From: Odoribacter splanchnicus DSM 20712
GTDB lineage: Bacteria; Bacteroidota; Bacteroidia; Bacteroidales; Marinifilaceae
Assembly (NCBI RefSeq): GCF_000190535.1
Contig: NC_015160.1
Location: 2,728,001-2,792,000 of the forward strand
DNA length: 64,000 nt
Reading direction: 5' to 3'
Part shown: one piece after another, positions 34,253-49,872 of the stretch
How the letters are laid out: each line of letters begins with the position of its first letter
Position numbering within the stretch: position 1 is the stretch's first letter
Program-made: the position numbers and the translations under genes
Notes under the pieces: generated by a model
Told to the model about the DNA's origin: nothing
Database searches by the model: none
Seen by the model: the letters and a program-made list of their open reading frames with translations, nothing else

Positions 34253-34258
34253 AAAGCG

Positions 34259-34290
34259 ATAAGCTATAAGCTAAAAGCTTATTTTTGTTT
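34259..34290 (+). terminator. Hairpin terminator after the MscS gene, built from AAGCTATAAGCT words
   Basis: ATAAGCT (34259-34265) pairs with AGCTTAT (34276-34282), followed by TTTTGTTTT on the plus strand. It stands seven bases after the stop codon and uses the same word that fills the rpsK-rpsD spacer at 42170-42250. Confidence 0.65.
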
Positions 34291-34335
34291 TACCATACAG
34301 CTTAGCTTATAACTTTTAACCTATTTAGTTGATTT

Positions 34336-36868: not shown

Positions 36869-36906
36869 AAAGAATGAAGAATGAAGAATTAAAAATGAAG
36901 AATTAA
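36869..36906. repeat. Short direct repeats of a GAATGAAGAAT word upstream of eno
   Basis: The words AGAATGAAGAATGAAGAATT and AAAATGAAGAATTAA follow one another here. No complementary arm is present. It is one of several spacer-specific word repeats in this window. Confidence 0.55.
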
Positions 36907-42137: not shown

Positions 42138-42169
42138 TTGTTTCTATTCTTTAAATTTACACAACATTC

Positions 42170-42250
42170 ATAAGCTATAGGCTACAAGCTATAAGCTACA
42201 GGCTTTCGGCCTTTTCTTGCTTTTAGCATTTCGCTTTTAGCTTTTAGCTT
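42170..42250. repeat. Hairpin-forming word repeats in the rpsK-rpsD spacer
   Basis: The left arm repeats the word AAGCTATA/AGCTACA (TAAGCTATAGGCTACAAGCT, then ATAAGCTACAGGCT), and the right arm repeats GCTTTTAGC (GCTTTTAGCATTTCGCTTTT, then AGCTTTTAGCTTT), which is nearly complementary to the left arm. The spacer could fold into one long imperfect hairpin with a GGCTTTCGGCC tip. Confidence 0.7.
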
Positions 42251-42252
42251 TA

Positions 42253-42645
42253 TTACACTCTTCTGCGTTTCGGAGGCCGGCAACCATTGTGTGGAAGCGG
42301 GGTAACATCGATGATTTCAGCTACTTCGATACCACTGGCGTGAATAGAACGAATGGCTGATTCACGGCCATTACCCGGACCGGAAACATATACTTTAGCT
42401 TTACGCATCCCCAGATCGAATGCGACCTTAGCGCAATCGGCAGCTGCCATCTGAGCTGCATACGGAGTGTTCTTTTTAGATCCTCTGAAACCCATCTTTC
42501 CGGCGGAAGACCATGAAATCACCTGACCAGTAGAATTGGTCAAAGAAATGATGATGTTGTTAAATGAGGAATGAACGTGTGCTTGTCCCACGGCTTCTAC
42601 TTTAACCAGCCGCTTCTTGTTACTTGATGTAGACTTCTTTGCCAT
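42253..42645 (-). CDS. rpsK: 30S ribosomal protein S11
   Basis: The product has 130 residues with [37 protein letters not shown] and the C-terminal [15 protein letters not shown] that lines the mRNA exit on the platform. It follows rpsM by 12 bases. Confidence 0.98.
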
Positions 42646-42657
42646 AATTCAACTCAA

Positions 42658-43035
42658 TTATTTAGTTGCTTTTTTCTTGTTAGCAACAGTTTTCTTCTTA
42701 CCCTTACGTGTACGGGCATTGTTCTTCGTGCTCTGTCCTCTTACGGGCAGTCCTAAACGGTGACGGATACCCCGGTAACAACCGATATCCATCAGTCGTT
42801 TGATGTTCATCTGAACGCTTGATCTCAACTCACCTTCGACTTTGTACTCTGTTCCAATGATTTTTCGTACAGCCCCGAGCTGGTCGTCGTTCCAGTCTTT
42901 CACCTTCAGGTCATAATCGATGCCGGCTTCACTCAGGATAGCACGTGCACTACTTCTACCTATACCATAGATATAGGTCAAGGCTATTTCTCCTCTTTTG
43001 TTTGAGGGTAAATCTACACCTACGATTCTTGCCAT
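42658..43035 (-). CDS. rpsM: 30S ribosomal protein S13
   Basis: The product has 125 residues with [38 protein letters not shown] and the basic [20 protein letters not shown] tail that reaches tRNA in the P site. It follows rpmJ by 30 bases. Confidence 0.98.
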
Positions 43036-43065
43036 AAATCTTTTTTAATTTAACTAGATTAATGA

Positions 43066-43182
43066 TTAACCCTGACGCATTTTAAACTTAGGGTTCTTTT
43101 TGTTAATGACGTACAAAACGCCTTTTCTTCTTACAATCTTGCAATCGTCATTACGTTTCTTGATTGACGCTCTTACCTTCAT
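43066..43182 (-). CDS. rpmJ: 50S ribosomal protein L36, zinc-free type
   Basis: This short frame encodes 38 residues beginning [19 protein letters not shown] and ending [12 protein letters not shown]. It matches L36 in length, in the KVRASIK start and in KFKMRQG at the end. Only one of the usual Cys/Cys/Cys/His zinc ligands remains (Cys14), so it is the zinc-independent form. It lies between infA and rpsM, the usual place. Confidence 0.95.
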
Positions 43183-43195
43183 GGTCCTTTAATTT

Positions 43196-43289
43196 GAATT
43201 ATTATGATTCATGATCTACGCATTACGATTTTCAATCAAAAGCCATACAGCTAAATCCGAAATCAAAAACCGTAAATCAAAAATTAAAT
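43196..43289. repeat. Word repeats in the infA-rpmJ spacer
   Basis: Words of the type TGATTCATGATC / CATTACGATTTTC occur on the left and AAATCCGAAATCAAAAACCG / TAAATCAAAAATT on the right, so the two halves are roughly complementary. The same ATTTACGATT word fills the spacer infA-map (43520-43545) and the spacer upstream of rplE. Confidence 0.6.
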
Positions 43290-43290
43290 T

Positions 43291-43512
43291 TTAGTTTTTG
43301 TATCTAAATGTAATTCTACCTTTTGTCAGGTCGTAAGGGGACATATCCACACGTACCCGGTCGCCAGGAAGTATCTTAATGTAATGCATACGCATCTTGC
43401 CGGAAATATGGGCTGTAATCACATGTCCATTTTCCAATTCTACCCGAAACATGGCATTCGACAATGCTTCTGTTATTACTCCATCCTGCTCTATTGACGG
43501 CTGTTTTGCCAT
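43291..43512 (-). CDS. infA: Translation initiation factor IF-1
   Basis: I start at ATG 43512 ([13 protein letters not shown]), giving 73 residues, the family length; a TTG two codons upstream is not needed. The OB-fold shows [24 protein letters not shown] in part, [23 protein letters not shown] and [11 protein letters not shown]-1 occupies the A site of the 30S subunit during initiation. Confidence 0.97.
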
Positions 43513-43537
43513 AAACAATTAATTTATGATTTATGAT

Positions 43538-44317
43538 TTACGATTTATGCAATACTTGCTCGACATATTCGAACGTAGACAAAATATCCGCACCATTCTT
43601 CCCTACGGCTACGGTATGCTCGAAATGAGCTGCCGGCTTTTTGTCCCTTGTCCGGATCGTCCATCCGTCGGCTTCCTGATAAATATGCCTTTTACCCAAA
43701 TTGATCATCGGTTCGATAGCGATCACCATCCCTTCTTTCAGTTTTACCCCCTGCCCCTGACGGCCATAATTAGGCACCTGAGGCTCTTCGTGTAAATCGT
43801 GTCCTACTCCGTGTCCTACCATCTCCCTCACCACCGAATAACCTTCGGCCTCACAATGGGATTGCACTGCATGTCCTATATCTCCGATCCGCATACCCGC
43901 AACAGCTTTTCCGATTCCTTTATAAAGGCTTTCTTTCGTCACCCGCAATAACTTCCGGATTTCTTCATCCACTTCCCCAACCTCGAAGGTATAGGCACTA
44001 TCACCGTAAAAACCGTTCTTCAAAGTGCCACAATCGATGGAAACAATATCCCCCTCTTGTAAAACACATTTTTCAGAGGGAATACCGTGCACGACAACGT
44101 CATTTACAGAAATACAAAGCGTATTCGGAAAACCACCGTAACCCAAAAATCCGGGCTCTGCACCGTGGTCACGAATAAACTCCTCTGCAATACGATCGAG
44201 CTCTAATGTAGAAATCCCCGGACGAATATGCTTTGCCATCTCGCCCAGAGTCATCCCTACCAATCGGTTGCTTTCTCTTAACAGTTCAATCTCTTCTCCG
44301 GTTTTTACAAAAATCAT
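43538..44317 (-). CDS. map: Type I methionine aminopeptidase
   Basis: The product has 259 residues. Metal ligands and catalytic residues are seen in VSIDCGTLKNGFYGDSAYTF (two Asp), GHGVGHDLHEEP (His), IAIEPM (Glu) and HFEHTVAVG (catalytic loop and C-terminal Glu region). It removes the N-terminal Met from nascent proteins. It sits between secY and infA, as in other Bacteroidetes. A consensus TAATTTTG box ends five bases before its ATG. Confidence 0.97.
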   Translation of the reverse strand: MIFVKTGEEIELLRESNRLVGMTLGEMAKHIRPGISTLELDRIAEEFIRDHGAEPGFLGYGGFPNTLCISVNDVVVHGIPSEKCVLQEGDIVSIDCGTLKNGFYGDSAYTFEVGEVDEEIRKLLRVTKESLYKGIGKAVAGMRIGDIGHAVQSHCEAEGYSVVREMVGHGVGHDLHEEPQVPNYGRQGQGVKLKEGMVIAIEPMINLGKRHIYQEADGWTIRTRDKKPAAHFEHTVAVGKNGADILSTFEYVEQVLHKS

Positions 44318-44321
44318 GCCG

Positions 44322-44329
44322 CAAAATTA
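44322..44329 (-). promoter_or_regulatory. Candidate -7 box (TAATTTTG) directly before map
   Basis: The minus strand reads TAATTTTG, then GCGGC-like bases, then the ATG at 44317. A functional promoter here would give a transcript starting at about the start codon. The -33 match is weak (TTAG or TTG at imperfect spacing). Confidence 0.45.
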
Positions 44330-44342
44330 CAAAAAATATTTC

Positions 44343-44404
44343 AAGTTTCTAAGTTGCTGAGTCACAAAGTTACTAAGTTTTTCTGAACTCAGTAACTTAG
44401 CAAC
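44343..44404. repeat. Hairpin-forming TAAGTTACT word repeats in the secY-map spacer
   Basis: CTAAGTTGCTGAGT and AAGTTACTAAGT on the left pair with ACTCAGTAACTTAGCAACTC on the right, giving a long imperfect stem between secY and map. Confidence 0.75.
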
Positions 44405-44414
44405 TCATTCACTA

Positions 44415-45755
44415 TTAATAGGCAGCCGGTCCACCGGGAGTCTTCCCTTTAATTCGTCCTGTTTTCATCAATCCGTCGTAATGACGCATCAACAAATGCG
44501 ACTCGATCTGTTGTAGAGTATCCAAAACAACTCCGACCAAAATCAACAGGGAAGTACCGCCATAGAACTGAGCAAACTGTTGGTTCACTCCGGCAATGGT
44601 TGCAAAAGCCGGTAATATGGCAACTATTCCCAGGAATATAGATCCCGGTAAAGTAATCCGTGACATAATGGTATCCAGGAACTCCATTGTTTTCCGTCCG
44701 GGTTTCACACCGGGAATAAATCCACCGTTCTTCTTCATATCCTCGGACATCTGCATCGGATTAACCGTAATCGCCGTATAAAAATACGTAAATGCCACAA
44801 TCAGGATAAAGAAAGTGAAGTTATACCAAAAACCGGTGAAATTAGAAAAAGCAGTTGCAAAACCGGATAACGATTCAGAAGCTGCATAATTCACAAAAGA
44901 AATCGGTAACAACATAATTGCCTGAGCAAAAATGATCGGCATAACCCCTGCAGCATTAATCTTCAGAGGGATATACTGACGTACTCCACCATATTGTTTG
45001 TTTCCGACAATACGTTTTGCATACTGTACAGGCACCTTACGGGTTCCTTGTACCAGCAGGATCGTACCGCAGAATACGAAAAACAGCAGAATAATCTCGA
45101 TCAGGAATGCCACCAATCCGCCACCTTGCTGACTAACACGCGAAGTCAGTTCGGCAAAGAATGCAAACGGCAGACGGGCGATAATACCAATCATGATAAT
45201 GATAGAAACACCGTTTCCAATACCTTTATCTGTAATTTTTTCACCCAACCACAAAACGAACATAGAGCCCGCAGCCAGGATAATTACGGAATAGATTGTA
45301 AAGAAAGCCCCTTTTATCAGAAAGAATTCGGGCTGAATCTGTGCATGCAAGTTGGTAAGATACGCAGAACCTTGTAATATCAGAATGATAATGGTCAGAT
45401 AACGGGTAATCTGGTTGATTTTACGCCGTCCACTTTCCCCTTCACGCTGCATACGCTGAAAATAAGGAACCGCAATTCCCAGTAACTGAACTACGATAGA
45501 AGCAGAGATATAGGGCATAATTCCCAAGGCAAAGATCGAAGCATTCGAAAATGCACCTCCCGAAAACATATCCAGCAATCCCAGCACACCACTCGAAGTC
45601 TGCTGTTTTAAAGCGGCTAATCCGGCAGGGTCGATACCCGGTAGTACCACCTCTGTTCCAAGTCTGTAAACGAGAATCAACCCGAGTGTTGTCAGAATCC
45701 GGGTTTTCAATTCCTCAATTTTCCAAATGTTCTTTAATGTATCAAATAACTTCAT
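44415..45755 (-). CDS. secY: Protein translocase subunit SecY
   Basis: The product has 446 residues with ten membrane spans. It starts MKLFDTLKNIWKIEELKTRI and has the family motifs LGIMPYISASIVVQLL, GVSIIIMIGII, VRQYIPLKINAAGVMPIIFAQ and a short basic C-terminus. SecY is the channel for Sec export and membrane insertion. It is flanked by spacers of about 100 bases rich in spacer-specific words. Confidence 0.98.
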   Translation of the reverse strand: MKLFDTLKNIWKIEELKTRILTTLGLILVYRLGTEVVLPGIDPAGLAALKQQTSSGVLGLLDMFSGGAFSNASIFALGIMPYISASIVVQLLGIAVPYFQRMQREGESGRRKINQITRYLTIIILILQGSAYLTNLHAQIQPEFFLIKGAFFTIYSVIILAAGSMFVLWLGEKITDKGIGNGVSIIIMIGIIARLPFAFFAELTSRVSQQGGGLVAFLIEIILLFFVFCGTILLVQGTRKVPVQYAKRIVGNKQYGGVRQYIPLKINAAGVMPIIFAQAIMLLPISFVNYAASESLSGFATAFSNFTGFWYNFTFFILIVAFTYFYTAITVNPMQMSEDMKKNGGFIPGVKPGRKTMEFLDTIMSRITLPGSIFLGIVAILPAFATIAGVNQQFAQFYGGTSLLILVGVVLDTLQQIESHLLMRHYDGLMKTGRIKGKTPGGPAAY

Positions 45756-45769
45756 AAGTTCTTTTATTT

Positions 45770-45855
45770 ATAAGTTTATAAAGTTTATAAAGTTTAAAAG
45801 TTACAAAGTTAAAATTACCTTATGAACTTATGAACTTTATGAACTTTATAAACTC
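45770..45855. repeat. Hairpin-forming AAGTTTATAAAGT word repeats in the rplO-secY spacer
   Basis: The left arm is three to four copies of AAGTTTATA (ATAAGTTTATAAAGTTTATA and on), and the right arm is copies of TATGAACTT (TTATGAACTTATGAACTTTA and on). The arms are roughly complementary over about 40 bases. Confidence 0.75.
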
Positions 45856-45863
45856 GTTTTGTT

Positions 45864-46310
45864 TTACAAAACGACTACAGAGCCACCGGCAGCCTCGATC
45901 GCAGCAATCGCTGACTTAGAGAATGCATTTGCTGTAATTTCGAGTTTAGCACTGATTGAGCCGTCACCCAAAACTTTCAACAATTCATTCTTATTGAGCA
46001 ATCCGGCTGCAATCAGAATATCCCGATCGATTTTCTCCAGATTATCTCTTTCAGCTAAAGCCTGCAACATGCTTACATTGATAGCTTTATAGGCTACACG
46101 ATTGATATTCTTAAAGCCGAATTTCGGTACACGTCTCTGCAGAGGCATCTGACCACCTTCAAAACCAATCTTCGTATGGTAACCCGATCTTGATTTAGCT
46201 CCTTTATGTCCTCTTGTAGAAGTACCTCCTTTTCCGGAACCTTGTCCGCGACCAATTCTTTTTTCGTGATGAGTTGATCCGCAGGCCGGTTTTAAGCTAC
46301 TTAAATCCAT
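45864..46310 (-). CDS. rplO: 50S ribosomal protein L15
   Basis: The product has 148 residues with the glycine-rich RIGRGQGSGKGGTSTRGHKG region and GFEGGQMPLQRRVPKFGF. It is a late-assembly 50S protein. It follows rpmD by 27 bases. Confidence 0.98.
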   Translation of the reverse strand: MDLSSLKPACGSTHHEKRIGRGQGSGKGGTSTRGHKGAKSRSGYHTKIGFEGGQMPLQRRVPKFGFKNINRVAYKAINVSMLQALAERDNLEKIDRDILIAAGLLNKNELLKVLGDGSISAKLEITANAFSKSAIAAIEAAGGSVVVL

Positions 46311-46337
46311 TTTATTTCGTTCTTAAAATGTTTATAC

Positions 46338-46520
46338 TTATTTTACTTCTTCCACACGAACCAGATGGCTGATTTTTGCCACCATTCCCAGGATCTGCGG
46401 AGTAGCTTCTTTCTCAACACTGCTGTTGGTTTTCTTCAATCCCAAAGCCTGAATAGTGCCTACCTGAGTTTTATCGCTACCGATTTTACTTTTTACAAGT
46501 GTGATTTTAATCTTTGCCAT
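46338..46520 (-). CDS. rpmD: 50S ribosomal protein L30
   Basis: I start at ATG 46520 ([16 protein letters not shown]), giving 60 residues. [13 protein letters not shown] and the final [10 protein letters not shown] are typical. It follows rpsE by 12 bases. Confidence 0.96.
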
Positions 46521-46532
46521 GATCCTCAAATA

Positions 46533-47039
46533 TTAACCGTTAAACACTTTATCCAGACTAATGCCTCTCTGAGCGGCAATCGTACGGGCATCACGCATTT
46601 CTTTCAATGCAGCTATCGTAGCTTTTACCAAATTGTGAGGGTTGGACGAACCTTTACTTTTAGCCAATACGTCGTGAATACCGGCACTTTCCAAAACAGC
46701 ACGCATAGCACCTCCGGCTACCAGCCCGGTACCGGAAGAAGCGGGTTGCATATAAACCTCAGAACCGCTGAAACGAGCTACCTGCTCATGAGGAATAGTT
46801 CCTTTCAATACAGGTACTTTGATCAGGTTCTTTTTAGCAGCTTCGATTCCTTTAGAAATAGCTGTAGTCACCTCGTTTGCTTTTCCTAATCCCCAGCCTA
46901 CGATTCCGTTTTCGTCACCTACCACAACGATAGCTGCGAAACTGAATGTACGACCTCCTTTTGTAACTTTGGTCACACGATTGATAGCTACCAATCTGTC
47001 CTTTAATTCCAAGTCAGTATTATTTACTTTTTGTTCCAT
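46533..47039 (-). CDS. rpsE: 30S ribosomal protein S5
   Basis: The product has 168 residues with [36 protein letters not shown] and the C-terminal domain [18 protein letters not shown]5 helps decoding fidelity and contacts the mRNA entry. Confidence 0.98.
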
Positions 47040-47051
47040 TCCGCTAACTTA

Positions 47052-47408
47052 TTAAAAATTAAGACCTCCGTTACGGGCAGCATCAGCTAATGCTTTTACT
47101 CTACCGTGATACAAATAACCGTTTCTGTCGAAAACAACAGCTTCGATACCGGCAGCTTTAGCTTTTTCTGCTACAGCAGCCCCTACGAAAGCAGCCTGTT
47201 CGGTCTTGTTGCCTTTCTTCTCAGCAATTTCCTTGCACAAAGATGAAACAGATAATAAAGTCTTACCTGCTTTATCGTCGATCAGCTGTACAGATATCTG
47301 CGCATTTGAACGATAAACGCTCATACGTGGACGTTCAGCTGTCCCGGAGACAATCTTCCGAATTCTCCGTTTTATTCTTAATCTTCTTTCTTCTTTCGTT
47401 AAAGCCAT
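47052..47408 (-). CDS. rplR: 50S ribosomal protein L18
   Basis: The product has 118 residues with [20 protein letters not shown] and [20 protein letters not shown], and it binds 5S rRNA with L5. It lies 22 bases after rplF. Confidence 0.98.
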
Positions 47409-47430
47409 AACTTTTTACTTCCTTTAGTAA

Positions 47431-47985
47431 TTAAACTTTAGCTGACTTACCTGCTTTCCGGCGAACCACTTCACCAACGAAGCGAATACCTTTACCCTTG
47501 TAAGGCTCAGGTTTACGGAAAGAACGGATTTTAGCAGCTACCTGACCGATCAACTGTTTGTCACAGCTTTCGAGCGTAATAATCGGGTTAGCACGTTTTT
47601 CAGTTACGGCTGTAACTTTCACCTCTGCCGGTAATTGCAAGAAGATAGAGTGAGAATATCCCAGTCCCAGTTCGAGAACCTGACCCTCAGCGTTAGCACG
47701 GAAACCAACACCTACTAATTCTTGTTTGATGGTATAACCTTCAGAAACACCTACAACCATATTATGAAGCAATGCACGGTACAGACCATGCTGTGCTTTG
47801 TGTTCTTTATCTTCTGTATGACGTGCTACATGCACTTCGTTCTCTTCAACGGTAACAGTCAGATCAGCACTTACCTGCTGAGAAAGTTGTCCTTTCGGAC
47901 CTTTGACTGTGACGGTGTTATCAGGACTTACTGCTACAGTAACTCCTTGTGGTATATGAATCGGTAATTTCCCTATACGTGACAT
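47431..47985 (-). CDS. rplF: 50S ribosomal protein L6
   Basis: The product has 184 residues, starting MSRIGKLPIHIPQGV, with VTVKGPKGQLS and the signature PEPYKGKGIRFVGEVVRRK. It sits near the factor-binding site of the 50S subunit. Confidence 0.98.
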   Translation of the reverse strand: MSRIGKLPIHIPQGVTVAVSPDNTVTVKGPKGQLSQQVSADLTVTVEENEVHVARHTEDKEHKAQHGLYRALLHNMVVGVSEGYTIKQELVGVGFRANAEGQVLELGLGYSHSIFLQLPAEVKVTAVTEKRANPIITLESCDKQLIGQVAAKIRSFRKPEPYKGKGIRFVGEVVRRKAGKSAKV

Positions 47986-48003
47986 TTCTTCTTCACTTTA
48001 AAA

Positions 48004-48399
48004 TTAATACACATAACACAATACTTCACCGCCTACATTCCGCTGGCGAGCTTCTTTGTCAGTCATCAATCCCATTGAGGTAGACAAAATGGCAATACCC
48101 AGTCCGTTCAATACACGTGGCATTTCTTCCACATTAGTGTACCGACGTAAACCCGGTTTTGACACACGTACCAGCGATTTGATGGCCGATACTTTCGTCT
48201 CGGGATGATATTTCAATGCAATTTTGATATTGCTTCTTGCACCTTCCTGTTCGAACTTATAATTCAGGATATATCCTTTTTCTTTCAGGATTTTGGTCAT
48301 TTCGAGTTTAATTTTAGAACCCGGGATTTCAACCACTTTATGACCAACACTTACCGCATTCCGAATGCGGGTAAGGAAATCTGCTATTGGATCTGTCAT
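48004..48399 (-). CDS. rpsH: 30S ribosomal protein S8
   Basis: The product has 131 residues, with TDPIADFLTRIRNAV at the start and GLGIAILSTSMGLMTDKEAR in the C-terminal RNA-binding part. In E. coli S8 represses the spc operon at rplE; no such site was tested here. Confidence 0.98.
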   Translation of the reverse strand: MTDPIADFLTRIRNAVSVGHKVVEIPGSKIKLEMTKILKEKGYILNYKFEQEGARSNIKIALKYHPETKVSAIKSLVRVSKPGLRRYTNVEEMPRVLNGLGIAILSTSMGLMTDKEARQRNVGGEVLCYVY

Positions 48400-48420
48400 C
48401 TCTTTTCGTTTTTTTTAATA

Positions 48421-48690
48421 TTACCAACTAGCCTTTTTAACTCCCGGTATCAACCCTTGTGAAGCCATTTCACGGAATTGGATACGGCTGATACCAAATT
48501 GTCTCATATAACCTCTGGGACGTCCAGTCAGTTTGCAACGGTTGTGCAAACGGATCGGATTCGAGTTTCTAGGCAGGAGACTCAGTGCAGCATAGTCACC
48601 TTCCTCTTTTAATTTTGCTCGTTTCGCAGCGTACTTTTCTACCAATTTTGCACGCTTCACCTCACGGGCTTTCATTGATTCTTTTGCCAT
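48421..48690 (-). CDS. rpsN: 30S ribosomal protein S14, zinc-free type
   Basis: The product has 89 residues, the long form, with [20 protein letters not shown] and [21 protein letters not shown]. It has a single Cys and no C-x2-C pairs, so it does not bind zinc. Confidence 0.97.
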
Positions 48691-48701
48691 TTCGCTTGTT
48701 T

Positions 48702-49250
48702 TTAGTTCTTTTTAAACGGTAATCCAAACTCTCTGAGCAGAGCAAAACCTTCTTCGTCGGTATTAGCCGAAGTCACAAATGTAATGTTCATACCCATGAT
48801 TTTGTGAACGGAATCCATCACAATTTCAGGGAATATGATCTGCTCTTCAAGACCTAATGTATAGTTGCCTTTTCCGTCCAGCTTACTGTTGATCCCCTTG
48901 AAGTCGCGGATACGCGGCAGGGCACTACAGATCAATCTTTCCAGAAATTCGTACATACGTTCTTTCCGTAAAGTCACTTTCACACCGATCGGCATGCCTT
49001 TACGCAATTTGAAGTTAGATACGTCTTTTGTCGATTTACCTACAACAGCTTTCTGACCTGTTATCGCAGTAATCTCATTCAATGAAAATTCCAGGATCTT
49101 CTTATCCTGAATAGCTGAACCCACTCCCTGATTGATTACTATCTTCTCCAGCCGGGGAGCCTGCATAACTGACTTGTATCCGAATTCTTTCATTAAAGTC
49201 GGTACAATCTCTTCGTTATACTTTGTTTTAAGATTTGGTACGTATTTCAT
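48702..49250 (-). CDS. rplE: 50S ribosomal protein L5
   Basis: The product has 182 residues with [40 protein letters not shown] and [20 protein letters not shown]. It binds 5S rRNA and contacts S13. A 204-base spacer with a candidate promoter separates it from rplX, the longest gap in the S10-spc part. Confidence 0.98.
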
Positions 49251-49264
49251 CTATTTAATTATAA

Positions 49265-49454
49265 TTTTGATTCACGATTGACGATTTTACACACAATAGT
49301 CGACCGAAAAATCAGATTTTCAGGCGGCAAAGGTATAAAATATTTTGGATTATATCACTTCGTAAATCCCATTTTTATTCTTGCTTTACGATATTGATTT
49401 ACGATCAGAGTGTTTTTTCACTATAATCGTAAATCCGGAATCGTAAATCAGGTC
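49265..49454. repeat. ATTTACGATT word repeats in the rplX-rplE spacer
   Basis: Words GATTCACGATTGACGATTTT (49267-49290), CTTTACGATATTGATTTACG (49380-49405) and ATCGTAAATCCGGAATCGTA (49424-49450) share the core ATTTACGAT or its complement. The direct and inverted copies could fold together. The candidate rplE promoter lies between the blocks. Confidence 0.65.
49328..49335 (-). promoter_or_regulatory. Candidate internal promoter -7 box (TACCTTTG) before rplE
   Basis: The minus strand reads TACCTTTG, a match to TAnnTTTG, about 78 bases upstream of the rplE ATG in the largest spacer of the cluster. The -33 region lacks a perfect TTTG. It suggests that spc genes can be transcribed apart from S10 genes. 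Confidence 0.5.
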
Positions 49455-49778
49455 TTATTTCAGGATTTCTCCTGATTTTTTAGCATATCTCACCAAGTTA
49501 CCTTTTTCGTCCTTTTTACGGCCGATACGGGTCGGTTTGTTGGTAGACGGATCGATCACGTTCAGGTTAGAGATGTGGATCGGAGCTTCTTGCTTGATGA
49601 TACCACCCTGCGGATATTTAGCATTCGGTTTGGTATGTTTGCTGATCATGTTGATTCCCTCAACGATCGCTCTTTCCTTATCCGGAAAAACTTCCAGTAC
49701 CTTTCCCTGTTTGCCTTTATCTTCCCCAGCGTTCACCTGTACTAAATCGCCTTTTTTAATATGAAATTTTCTATTCAT
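49455..49778 (-). CDS. rplX: 50S ribosomal protein L24
   Basis: The product has 107 residues with the KOW motif [20 protein letters not shown] and [16 protein letters not shown]. It starts assembly of the 50S 5' domain. Confidence 0.98.
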
Positions 49779-49796
49779 CTCTTTACTTTTTTAATT

Positions 49797-49872
49797 GTCG
49801 AAAGTCCAAAAGTCAAGAGTTTAAAAATTCTCATTCCCGAACATTCGACTTTCTGACATTCGACATTTGACA
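49797..49872. repeat. GTCGAAAGTC / GACTTTCTGACATTCGAC word repeats in the rplN-rplX spacer
   Basis: GTCGAAAGTCCAAAAGTCAA on the left and CGACTTTCTGACATTCGACA on the right are largely complementary, and the right part repeats the word ACATTCGAC/GACATTTGACA. The spacer can form an imperfect stem-loop between rplN and rplX. Confidence 0.7.

Follow-up and report, generated by a model that had tools for sequence, protein, structure and literature searches.

Degenerate tandem-word hairpins in the ribosomal-protein operon of Odoribacter splanchnicus and their turnover between congeners

Introduction

What fills the long gaps between the genes of an essential ribosomal-protein operon, and how does it come to be there? 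We address this question for the S10-spc-alpha ribosomal cluster of Odoribacter splanchnicus DSM 20712, which lies on the minus strand of a stretch of 64,000 nucleotides (G000:C1:2728001-2792000, referred to below as the window; positions without a contig are positions in the window, and gene names are our reading of the products). A prediction made earlier from the letters of this DNA held that most long gaps of the cluster consist of a short word repeated in one hairpin arm and its complement repeated in the other, that each spacer has its own word, and that these structures might be mobile hairpin elements, mRNA-processing or stability signals, or partial terminators that set stoichiometry. 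We find that the spacers are degenerate tandem arrays of a word of 7–9 nt whose core is fixed while one or two of its bases float, that the words form a lexicon shared by the whole genome rather than specific to single spacers, and that at most hairpin spacers the sequence is replaced almost completely between congeners.

The nearest published work that we found concerns direct-repeat arrays of the heptamer TAACTGA, which occur in Beggiatoaceae, Cyanobacteria and five Bacteroidetes, in some cases within Beggiatoaceae ribosomal operons; relatives of some of the Bacteroidetes have shorter spacers free of arrays (MacGregor 2015, PMC4679880). That article also cites Mrazek et al. 2007, according to whom the long simple repeats of most genomes are most often heptanucleotides, for which polymerase slippage is a possible origin.

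Results

Word hairpins occupy every long gap of the cluster

Exactly six gaps of the cluster exceed 90 nt, and hairpins with word-like arms are found in all six, which bears out both the predicted structure and its predicted prevalence. The hairpin score and the tandem score of each spacer were tested against 300 dinucleotide shuffles. Both scores reached p = 0.003 in rpsK-rpsD (42138..42252), secY-map (44318..44414), rplO-secY (45756..45863) and rplN-rplX (49779..49872), all on the minus strand; the weaker spacers, on the same strand, are infA-rpmJ (43183..43290; p = 0.03 for the hairpin and 0.01 for the tandem score) and rplX-rplE (49251..49454; 0.007 and 0.053). The other gaps of at least 45 nt in the window, namely fusA-rpsJ (60), rpsJ-rplC (54) and rpsS-rplV (49), do not reach significance on both. 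Folding of the mRNA strand yields z = -7.0 for rplO-secY, -4.3 for secY-map, -4.1 for rplN-rplX and -4.8 for rplX-rplE (its 137-nt part only), and z = -2.0 for both rpsK-rpsD (6 of 200 shuffles fold as well) and infA-rpmJ (7 of 200). Tandem Repeats Finder gives periods of 7, 8 and 9 at these spacers, plus some longer ones.

In the sense of the mRNA, the left arm begins a few bases past a stop codon and the right arm finishes ahead of the next start. The arms are built from AAGCTA words in rpsK-rpsD (left arm 42219-42250, right arm 42172-42203), GATTTACG words in infA-rpmJ (43253-43290 and 43191-43231), AAGTTACT/AAGTTGCT words in secY-map (44380-44405 and 44344-44368), AAGTTTATA/AAGTTCATA words in rplO-secY (45816-45854 and 45773-45811) and GTCGAA words in rplN-rplX (49840-49868 and 49793-49821). 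Several words thus differ between spacers, as predicted; the claim of one word for each spacer does not hold, since GATTTACG words occur in infA-rpmJ, in rplX-rplE (hairpin at about 49385-49447) and in the map-infA spacer (43514..43549, minus strand), a ATAAATCGTAAATC word array of the right-arm type with the map stop codon inside it, and since the words recur genome-wide. Nor are the arms exactly a word and its complement. Alignment of the facing arrays shows that they pair word by word, often with one or two mismatched positions in each word; for example, GATTT cores pair while the two bases between cores remain unpaired.

The words form a genome-wide lexicon

The genome-wide counts come from a sample of 1.654 Mb that includes the window and comprises 62 pieces with 1262 called genes and 813 gaps of at least 30 nt. 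Gap counts are approximate because small genes (infA, rpmJ) escaped the gene caller. Of the 60 later stretches, nine (at 490, 550, 1250, 2125, 2570, 3195, 3535, 3765 and 3830 kb) contain matches from a search with the 12-mer AAATCGTAAATC, most of them by placement, and the sample is slightly enriched in this respect. The exact 12-mer shows no clear enrichment in the genome (12 occurrences vs 7 for a reversed control).

A search for gaps with both internal repetition and self-complementarity, as the original prediction had proposed, finds a tandem score of at least 10 together with a hairpin score of at least 12 in 34 of 785 scored gaps, compared with 1.4 per round in 20 rounds of shuffling; the rates of words and hairpins are not reached by shuffled sequence. 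Arrays with lags of 7–9 number 258 in gaps vs 98.5 in shuffles, and those with lag 7 alone 141 vs 33.9; the 7-nt unit predominates among the lags scanned, and units of 8 and 9 nt are present too. The density of arrays per 10 kb is 9.5 in gaps and 2.7 in coding DNA, where the periods are chiefly 9 and 6. Among 65 pairs of arrays no more than 200 nt apart, 15 are inverted with the same word (0.75 in shuffles) and seven are direct with the same word (1.1).

Individual words recur as arrays: AAAAAGT 11 times, AAAAGCT 10, AAACTTTAT 8, and AAAATTG, AAAAGGT and AAATCGT 6 each, with at most 0.55 for any of them in shuffles (AAAAGCT 0.2, AAACTTTAT 0, AAATCGT 0). Low-complexity words such as AAAAAAT (8 vs 2.25) are less telling. 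The recurrence of words across gaps is far beyond that in shuffles, and we therefore regard them as a shared lexicon. The AAGCT words account for 48 arrays, spread over 37 loci of the 1.78 Mb examined; 10 of the 37 have arrays on both strands. Because some stretches (L231-L235 and L327-L338) were picked by AAGCT matches, the number of loci gives no measure of density; apart from supplying the purD and uvrA queries below, these stretches were used only in the AAGCT counts of loci, polarity, block sharing and stop joins. One further AAGCTA-word hairpin lies in the window outside the cluster (34253..34335, plus strand), between two co-directional called genes. Among 233 copies of the AAGCTA heptamer, positions 1, 3, 4, 5 and 6 are fixed at 91–99%, while positions 2 and 7 deviate in 41% and 39%; the collecting pattern, which allowed no more than two mismatches, gave some freedom to position 7 but none to position 2.

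Arrays of other kinds were also seen. The window has an AAGAATG/AATTAAA heptamer array in a divergent gap (36870-36906); in divergent gaps at L212:11619-11798, L201:7668-7926 and L167:17009-17207, promoter-like TTTG sites are immediately preceded by pyrimidine-rich heptamer arrays (TTTTCAA, TTTTACC); and long 8-mer arrays of AACTCAGCAACTCAAT and related words are found at two distant loci, G000:C1:170025-170431 and 392179-392399.

The AAGCT lexicon is species-specific

The pattern (AAGCTNN)x4 with at most two mismatches has 86 overlapping matches in its own genome and none for the reversed control, and a shorter AAGCT pattern has 175 matches vs 1. The same four-word search in seven congeners gives 0, 1, 2, 0, 1, 0 and 2 matches (genome completeness 88, 99, 97, 99, 99, 66 and 67%, respectively), and 23 of 56 genomes of the family have any match. 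The AAGCT lexicon is thus species-specific. The pattern (GATTTNN)x4 is present in 49 of the 296 phylum genomes. By our tally, 32 of the 73 genomes of the same class have it, counting the genome studied here, as do 17 of the 223 outside the class; the reversed pattern cannot serve as an independent control, since it is contained in (GATTTTA)n.

Most hairpin spacers are replaced between congeners

Across six cluster genes, the window is on average 89.5, 89.0 and 88.4% identical at the DNA level to three congeners (L123, L124 and L127, in which order all identities below are given). The rpsK-rpsD spacer has identities of 0.50, 0.51 and 0.51 (shuffled 0.51–0.53; 0.51 for L123), rplN-rplX 0.53, 0.65 and 0.53 (0.47–0.51; 0.51 for L123), secY-map 0.59, 0.50 and 0.57 (0.45–0.51), rplO-secY 0.47, 0.89 and 0.73 (0.40–0.55), rplX-rplE 0.72, 0.49 and 0.73 (0.47–0.53), and infA-rpmJ 0.51, 0.50 and 0.22 (0.23–0.47). 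In total, 13 of these 18 comparisons lie within 0.09 of the shuffled identity. The plain spacers, taken together, are 74–100% identical to the same congeners: rpsJ-rplC 1.00, 0.94 and 0.96; rpmJ-rpsM 1.00, 0.97 and 0.90; rpsS-rplV 0.92, 0.92 and 0.94; rpsC-rplP 0.87, 0.80 and 0.87; rpmD-rplO 0.78, 0.76 and 0.74. The fusA-rpsJ spacer, a word site in relatives, has 0.54, 0.60 and 0.85.

The same spacers in relatives, whose comparison the original prediction had also called for, do carry words, mostly different ones, or are short. The word is retained at rplO-secY in L124, L127, L128 and L130 and partly at rplN-rplX in L124, and the promoter and leader half of rplX-rplE is retained in L123 and L127. 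The family set comprises 21 genomes (20 relatives and the window) and 30 junctions, with only spacers of at least 45 nt scored; at the 0.05 level both scores are significant for 53 spacers, which fall in eight of the 30 junctions and include fusA-rpsJ in 13 and rplN-rplX in 14 of 20 genomes. In 80 other named loci, 12 spacers over seven junctions are significant, and rplN-rplX never reaches 45 nt in 71. The result is near-complete sequence replacement between congeners at most hairpin spacers, with orthologous sites that are empty or carry another word.

Polarity and placement at gene edges

For 32 of the 48 AAGCT arrays, the gene upstream of the word is co-oriented with it, and 28 of these 32 begin no more than 25 nt from its stop codon or inside its end; four of the 32 lie more than 2.6 kb from a called gene or at the end of a stretch. 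The remaining 16 have the opposite polarity, and for 11 of these a start codon is no more than 52 nt away. Outside the operon, purD is separated from the gene that follows by an AAGCT array, inside which the purD frame now terminates (VKGKKLEAIS); the uvrA frame likewise terminates (KKVKG) at an AAGCT array. The 3' ends of both genes in the congeners G046, G044 and G043 have no such array (22 of 30 loci per gene examined, with queries taken from the AAGCT-chosen stretches L233 for purD and L231 for uvrA), and other words stand at the uvrA end elsewhere, namely GATTTACG words in G016 and GTTTATAAGGTTCATAAGG in G008.

Two broader rules were considered and rejected. Purine-rich words after stop codons (20 vs 7 in co-directional and 10 vs 0 in convergent gaps) are not a general rule since GATTTACG words break it, and our claim of polarity is therefore confined to the family in which we counted it, AAGCTA. 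An in-sense stop in 175 of 189 AAGCT word joins suggested stop-codon arrays, an idea we gave up because stops are common in AT-rich words and GTCGAA words have none.

Proposed local growth of the arrays

AAGCT arrays of at least 60 nt have an autocorrelation of 0.853 at lags 14 and 28, compared with 0.808 at lag 7, and contain higher-order repeats specific to each locus. Sharing of long blocks among 46 arrays (two arrays, forming the second copy of an identical dyad, and pairs of arrays less than 5 kb apart were omitted) does not exceed that in 12 heptamer shuffles: blocks of at least 25 nt are shared by 7 of 1018 pairs vs a mean of 16.7, blocks of at least 30 nt by two pairs vs 2.7, and the longest block is 40 nt vs a mean of 34.4. 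Locus-specific repeats without excess block sharing fit growth in place from a short seed and speak against transposition of a finished hairpin. Arms with the same word at 10 of 37 loci exceed the one or two expected (by hand arithmetic) from independent placement in about 850 gaps, which suggests that the second arm probably derives from the first.

The rplO-secY hairpin

In six genomes with a word hairpin at rplO-secY, from which the structure itself was derived, 94.3% of cells are paired (91.9% in shuffles, and 28–52% when slid) and six pairs show double changes vs 2.5 in shuffles. Family-wide, 14 of 20 rplO-secY spacers have p ≤ 0.01 for the hairpin and 7 of 20 for the tandem score. In other genera (L132-L135 and L137-L140; L136 equals L135) the position holds a different hairpin of about 100 nt that is not made of words and has 95% mean column identity; its 26 pairs show no double change in these eight genomes. 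Pairwise identity to L132 is 0.85–0.88, which is similar to that of rpsJ-rplC and rpsS-rplV and above that of rpmD-rplO and rpsC-rplP. A hairpin of whatever sequence seems to be maintained here in many genomes, probably in a role in mRNA stability or in uncoupling SecY expression from that of the ribosomal proteins, and the hairpin without words is a candidate cis-regulatory RNA before secY. Rfam gives no match at gathering score in the window, L135, L131 or L123.

Promoter-like sites in the spacers

Two spacers contain sites of a different kind. In rplX-rplE, the hairpin is followed in mRNA sense by a promoter-like TACCTTTGCCGC at 49324-49335 (minus strand) and a leader that contains a CCTGAAAATCTGATTTTTC stem. 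Some congeners have a similar arrangement, and other genera have ATGCCGTGAGGCAT instead; it is possibly a ribosomal-protein leader for rplE. Immediately 5' of the map ATG stands TAATTTTGCGGC (44318-44329, minus strand), which we take to resemble the Bacteroidota -7 box TAnnTTTG. The spacer ends in TTTTGCGGC before map in 18 of 21 family genomes, with variants in two and no spacer in one, and the pattern TANNTTTGCNGC has two matches in the window vs 0.53 expected. The arrangement suggests a putative internal promoter and a leaderless map mRNA.

Discussion

We consider it about an even chance (a probability near 0.5) that the hairpins are locally grown arrays of tandem words, seeded by short copied words, with the second arm made by fold-back templating, and mostly tolerated. 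A short word would be copied to a gene boundary through microhomology template switching or by a specific writer and would then expand in place by replication slippage. Templating on the first arm would produce the second, and separate drift and expansion of the two arms could account for the regular mismatches, with the left array past the stop and the right array before the start facing each other as the arms of a hairpin. Such hairpins would persist where extra spacer is tolerated and are probably transcribed inside the operon mRNA; at most sites their sequence looks dispensable.

Several observations weigh against this account. An identical AAGCTA-containing dyad is found at two loci (G000:C1:1476848-1476881 and 2310086-2310119, two of the 10 with arrays on both strands), perhaps inside a repeated element, and of the 25 arrays shown with eight upstream bases, 7 follow a related block (AAAGTAAA or AAGGTAAA), possibly a shared end. 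Slippage alone leaves one word at 37 loci of one species unexplained, and no writer, template or vector was found in a search limited to two pattern scans of viral contigs, in which 8 and 13 stretches matched the two word patterns (we draw no support from these for a phage vector). At the threshold used, 27 of 37 AAGCT loci have arrays on one strand only. Turnover is not uniform, as 5 of the 18 comparisons of hairpin spacers clearly exceed shuffled identity. A concerted change of words could mimic the covariation at rplO-secY, and across all hairpins no pair-level evidence of RNA selection is left once the composition of mismatches is controlled.

The hairpins may instead be selected cis-acting mRNA elements, serving in processing, 3'-end protection or the stoichiometry of ribosomal and non-ribosomal products, with words merely the easiest material for a stem; to this we give roughly half the credence of local growth. 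Beside the covariation and the different, conserved hairpin at rplO-secY in other genera, it is favored by the better folding of the mRNA strand than of the antisense strand in 26 of 32 thinned operon hairpins and in 41 vs 23 of 66 co-directional hairpins of the genome (18 and 16 of 36 in convergent gaps), a bias that G/T-rich sense composition alone would also give. Moreover, five of the eight occupied junctions border fusA, secY, map or infA, where non-ribosomal genes (these and rpoA) border only 7 of the 30, a hypergeometric probability of about 0.007 by hand arithmetic, computed post hoc and for scored spacers. Sites other than rplO-secY are short in many relatives, however, and arrays are found also as single arms and in divergent gaps. 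An excess of wobble pairs (107 G.T vs 44 A.C in 63 operon hairpins, 99 vs 51 in 81 co-directional hairpins of the genome) was tried as proof of RNA selection and abandoned, because it disappears when mismatched bases are permuted (0.709 observed vs 0.764 expected in the operon, 0.635 vs 0.66 genome-wide). The suggestion of a processing or stability signal therefore retains the covarying pairing at one site and loses its specific wobble excess.

A family of mobile hairpins inserted at gene ends, akin to miniature inverted-repeat transposable elements (MITE) or repetitive extragenic palindromes (REP), would explain presence and absence at orthologous boundaries, the abundance of one word in one species, the duplicated dyad and the recurrent upstream block. 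The excess of shared blocks over shuffles expected of a transposed finished unit is lacking, and loops and lengths differ; we hold such a family to be improbable. While REP elements, their bacterial interspersed mosaic elements (BIME) and tagged palindromes are likewise intergenic and palindromic, REP/BIME and MITE differ from the present elements, whose copies share no conserved element sequence and have tandem words for arms. We are equally skeptical that the words are protein-binding arrays or a drive-like signal favored by a DNA-binding or uptake machine. DNA uptake sequences occur as inverted pairs at gene ends, and here too the word is specific to a species, has a fixed core with two free positions and is found in inverted pairs at gene ends; this genome has several distinct words in tandem arrays, which are scarcer in coding DNA (counting arrays), and the AAGCT word is nearly absent from congeners. 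Lowest in probability are intrinsic terminators or attenuators. Long stems past stop codons between genes of one operon recall internal terminators that set stoichiometry, and a T6 run follows the secY-map stem by about 14 bases. The spacers lie within an essential operon, and none of the seven terminator-like sites found on the mRNA strand is in the six spacers. Since the scan required three or more G-C pairs together with a short loop, and since the T6 run is present, this result argues only weakly against the partial terminators originally proposed.

The closest published parallel is that of the TAACTGA arrays (PMC4679880). Like these, the present arrays have a dominant 7-nt unit, are intergenic and occur in ribosomal operons, and some Bacteroidetes there likewise have long intergenic heptamer arrays where relatives have shorter spacers without arrays. 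The TAACTGA arrays are near-identical copies of a single word that stand, for the most part in forward orientation, immediately ahead of start codons, whereas here there are several degenerate words (positions 2 and 7 of AAGCTAA vary) that pair in inverted orientation into hairpins, lie past stop codons (28 of 48 begin at a stop; 16 have the opposite polarity, 11 of them near starts) and are replaced between congeners. We found no description of inverted word hairpins, gene-edge polarity or word replacement in the open-licence literature that we searched.

A bolder possibility, which we hold to be doubtful, is that Bacteroidia have a machinery for writing words. Perhaps guided by a template, it would place heptamer words peculiar to each species at the edges of genes and would copy these words to the facing strand. 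If so, the effect would be comparable to telomere-like repeat addition at interstitial sites, with the spacers of an essential operon rewritten within a genus while the hairpin form is retained.

The spacers of an essential operon have mostly been replaced among species whose genes are about 89% identical, keeping their length class, polarity and hairpin form, which is hard to explain by point mutation or ordinary mobile elements. That a single word should sit at dozens of loci in one species and be all but absent from its congeners calls for some process of copying or writing, of which we found no description. Two questions thereby become testable: what makes heptamer repeats in bacteria, and whether an RNA structure can persist while its sequence is rewritten wholesale.

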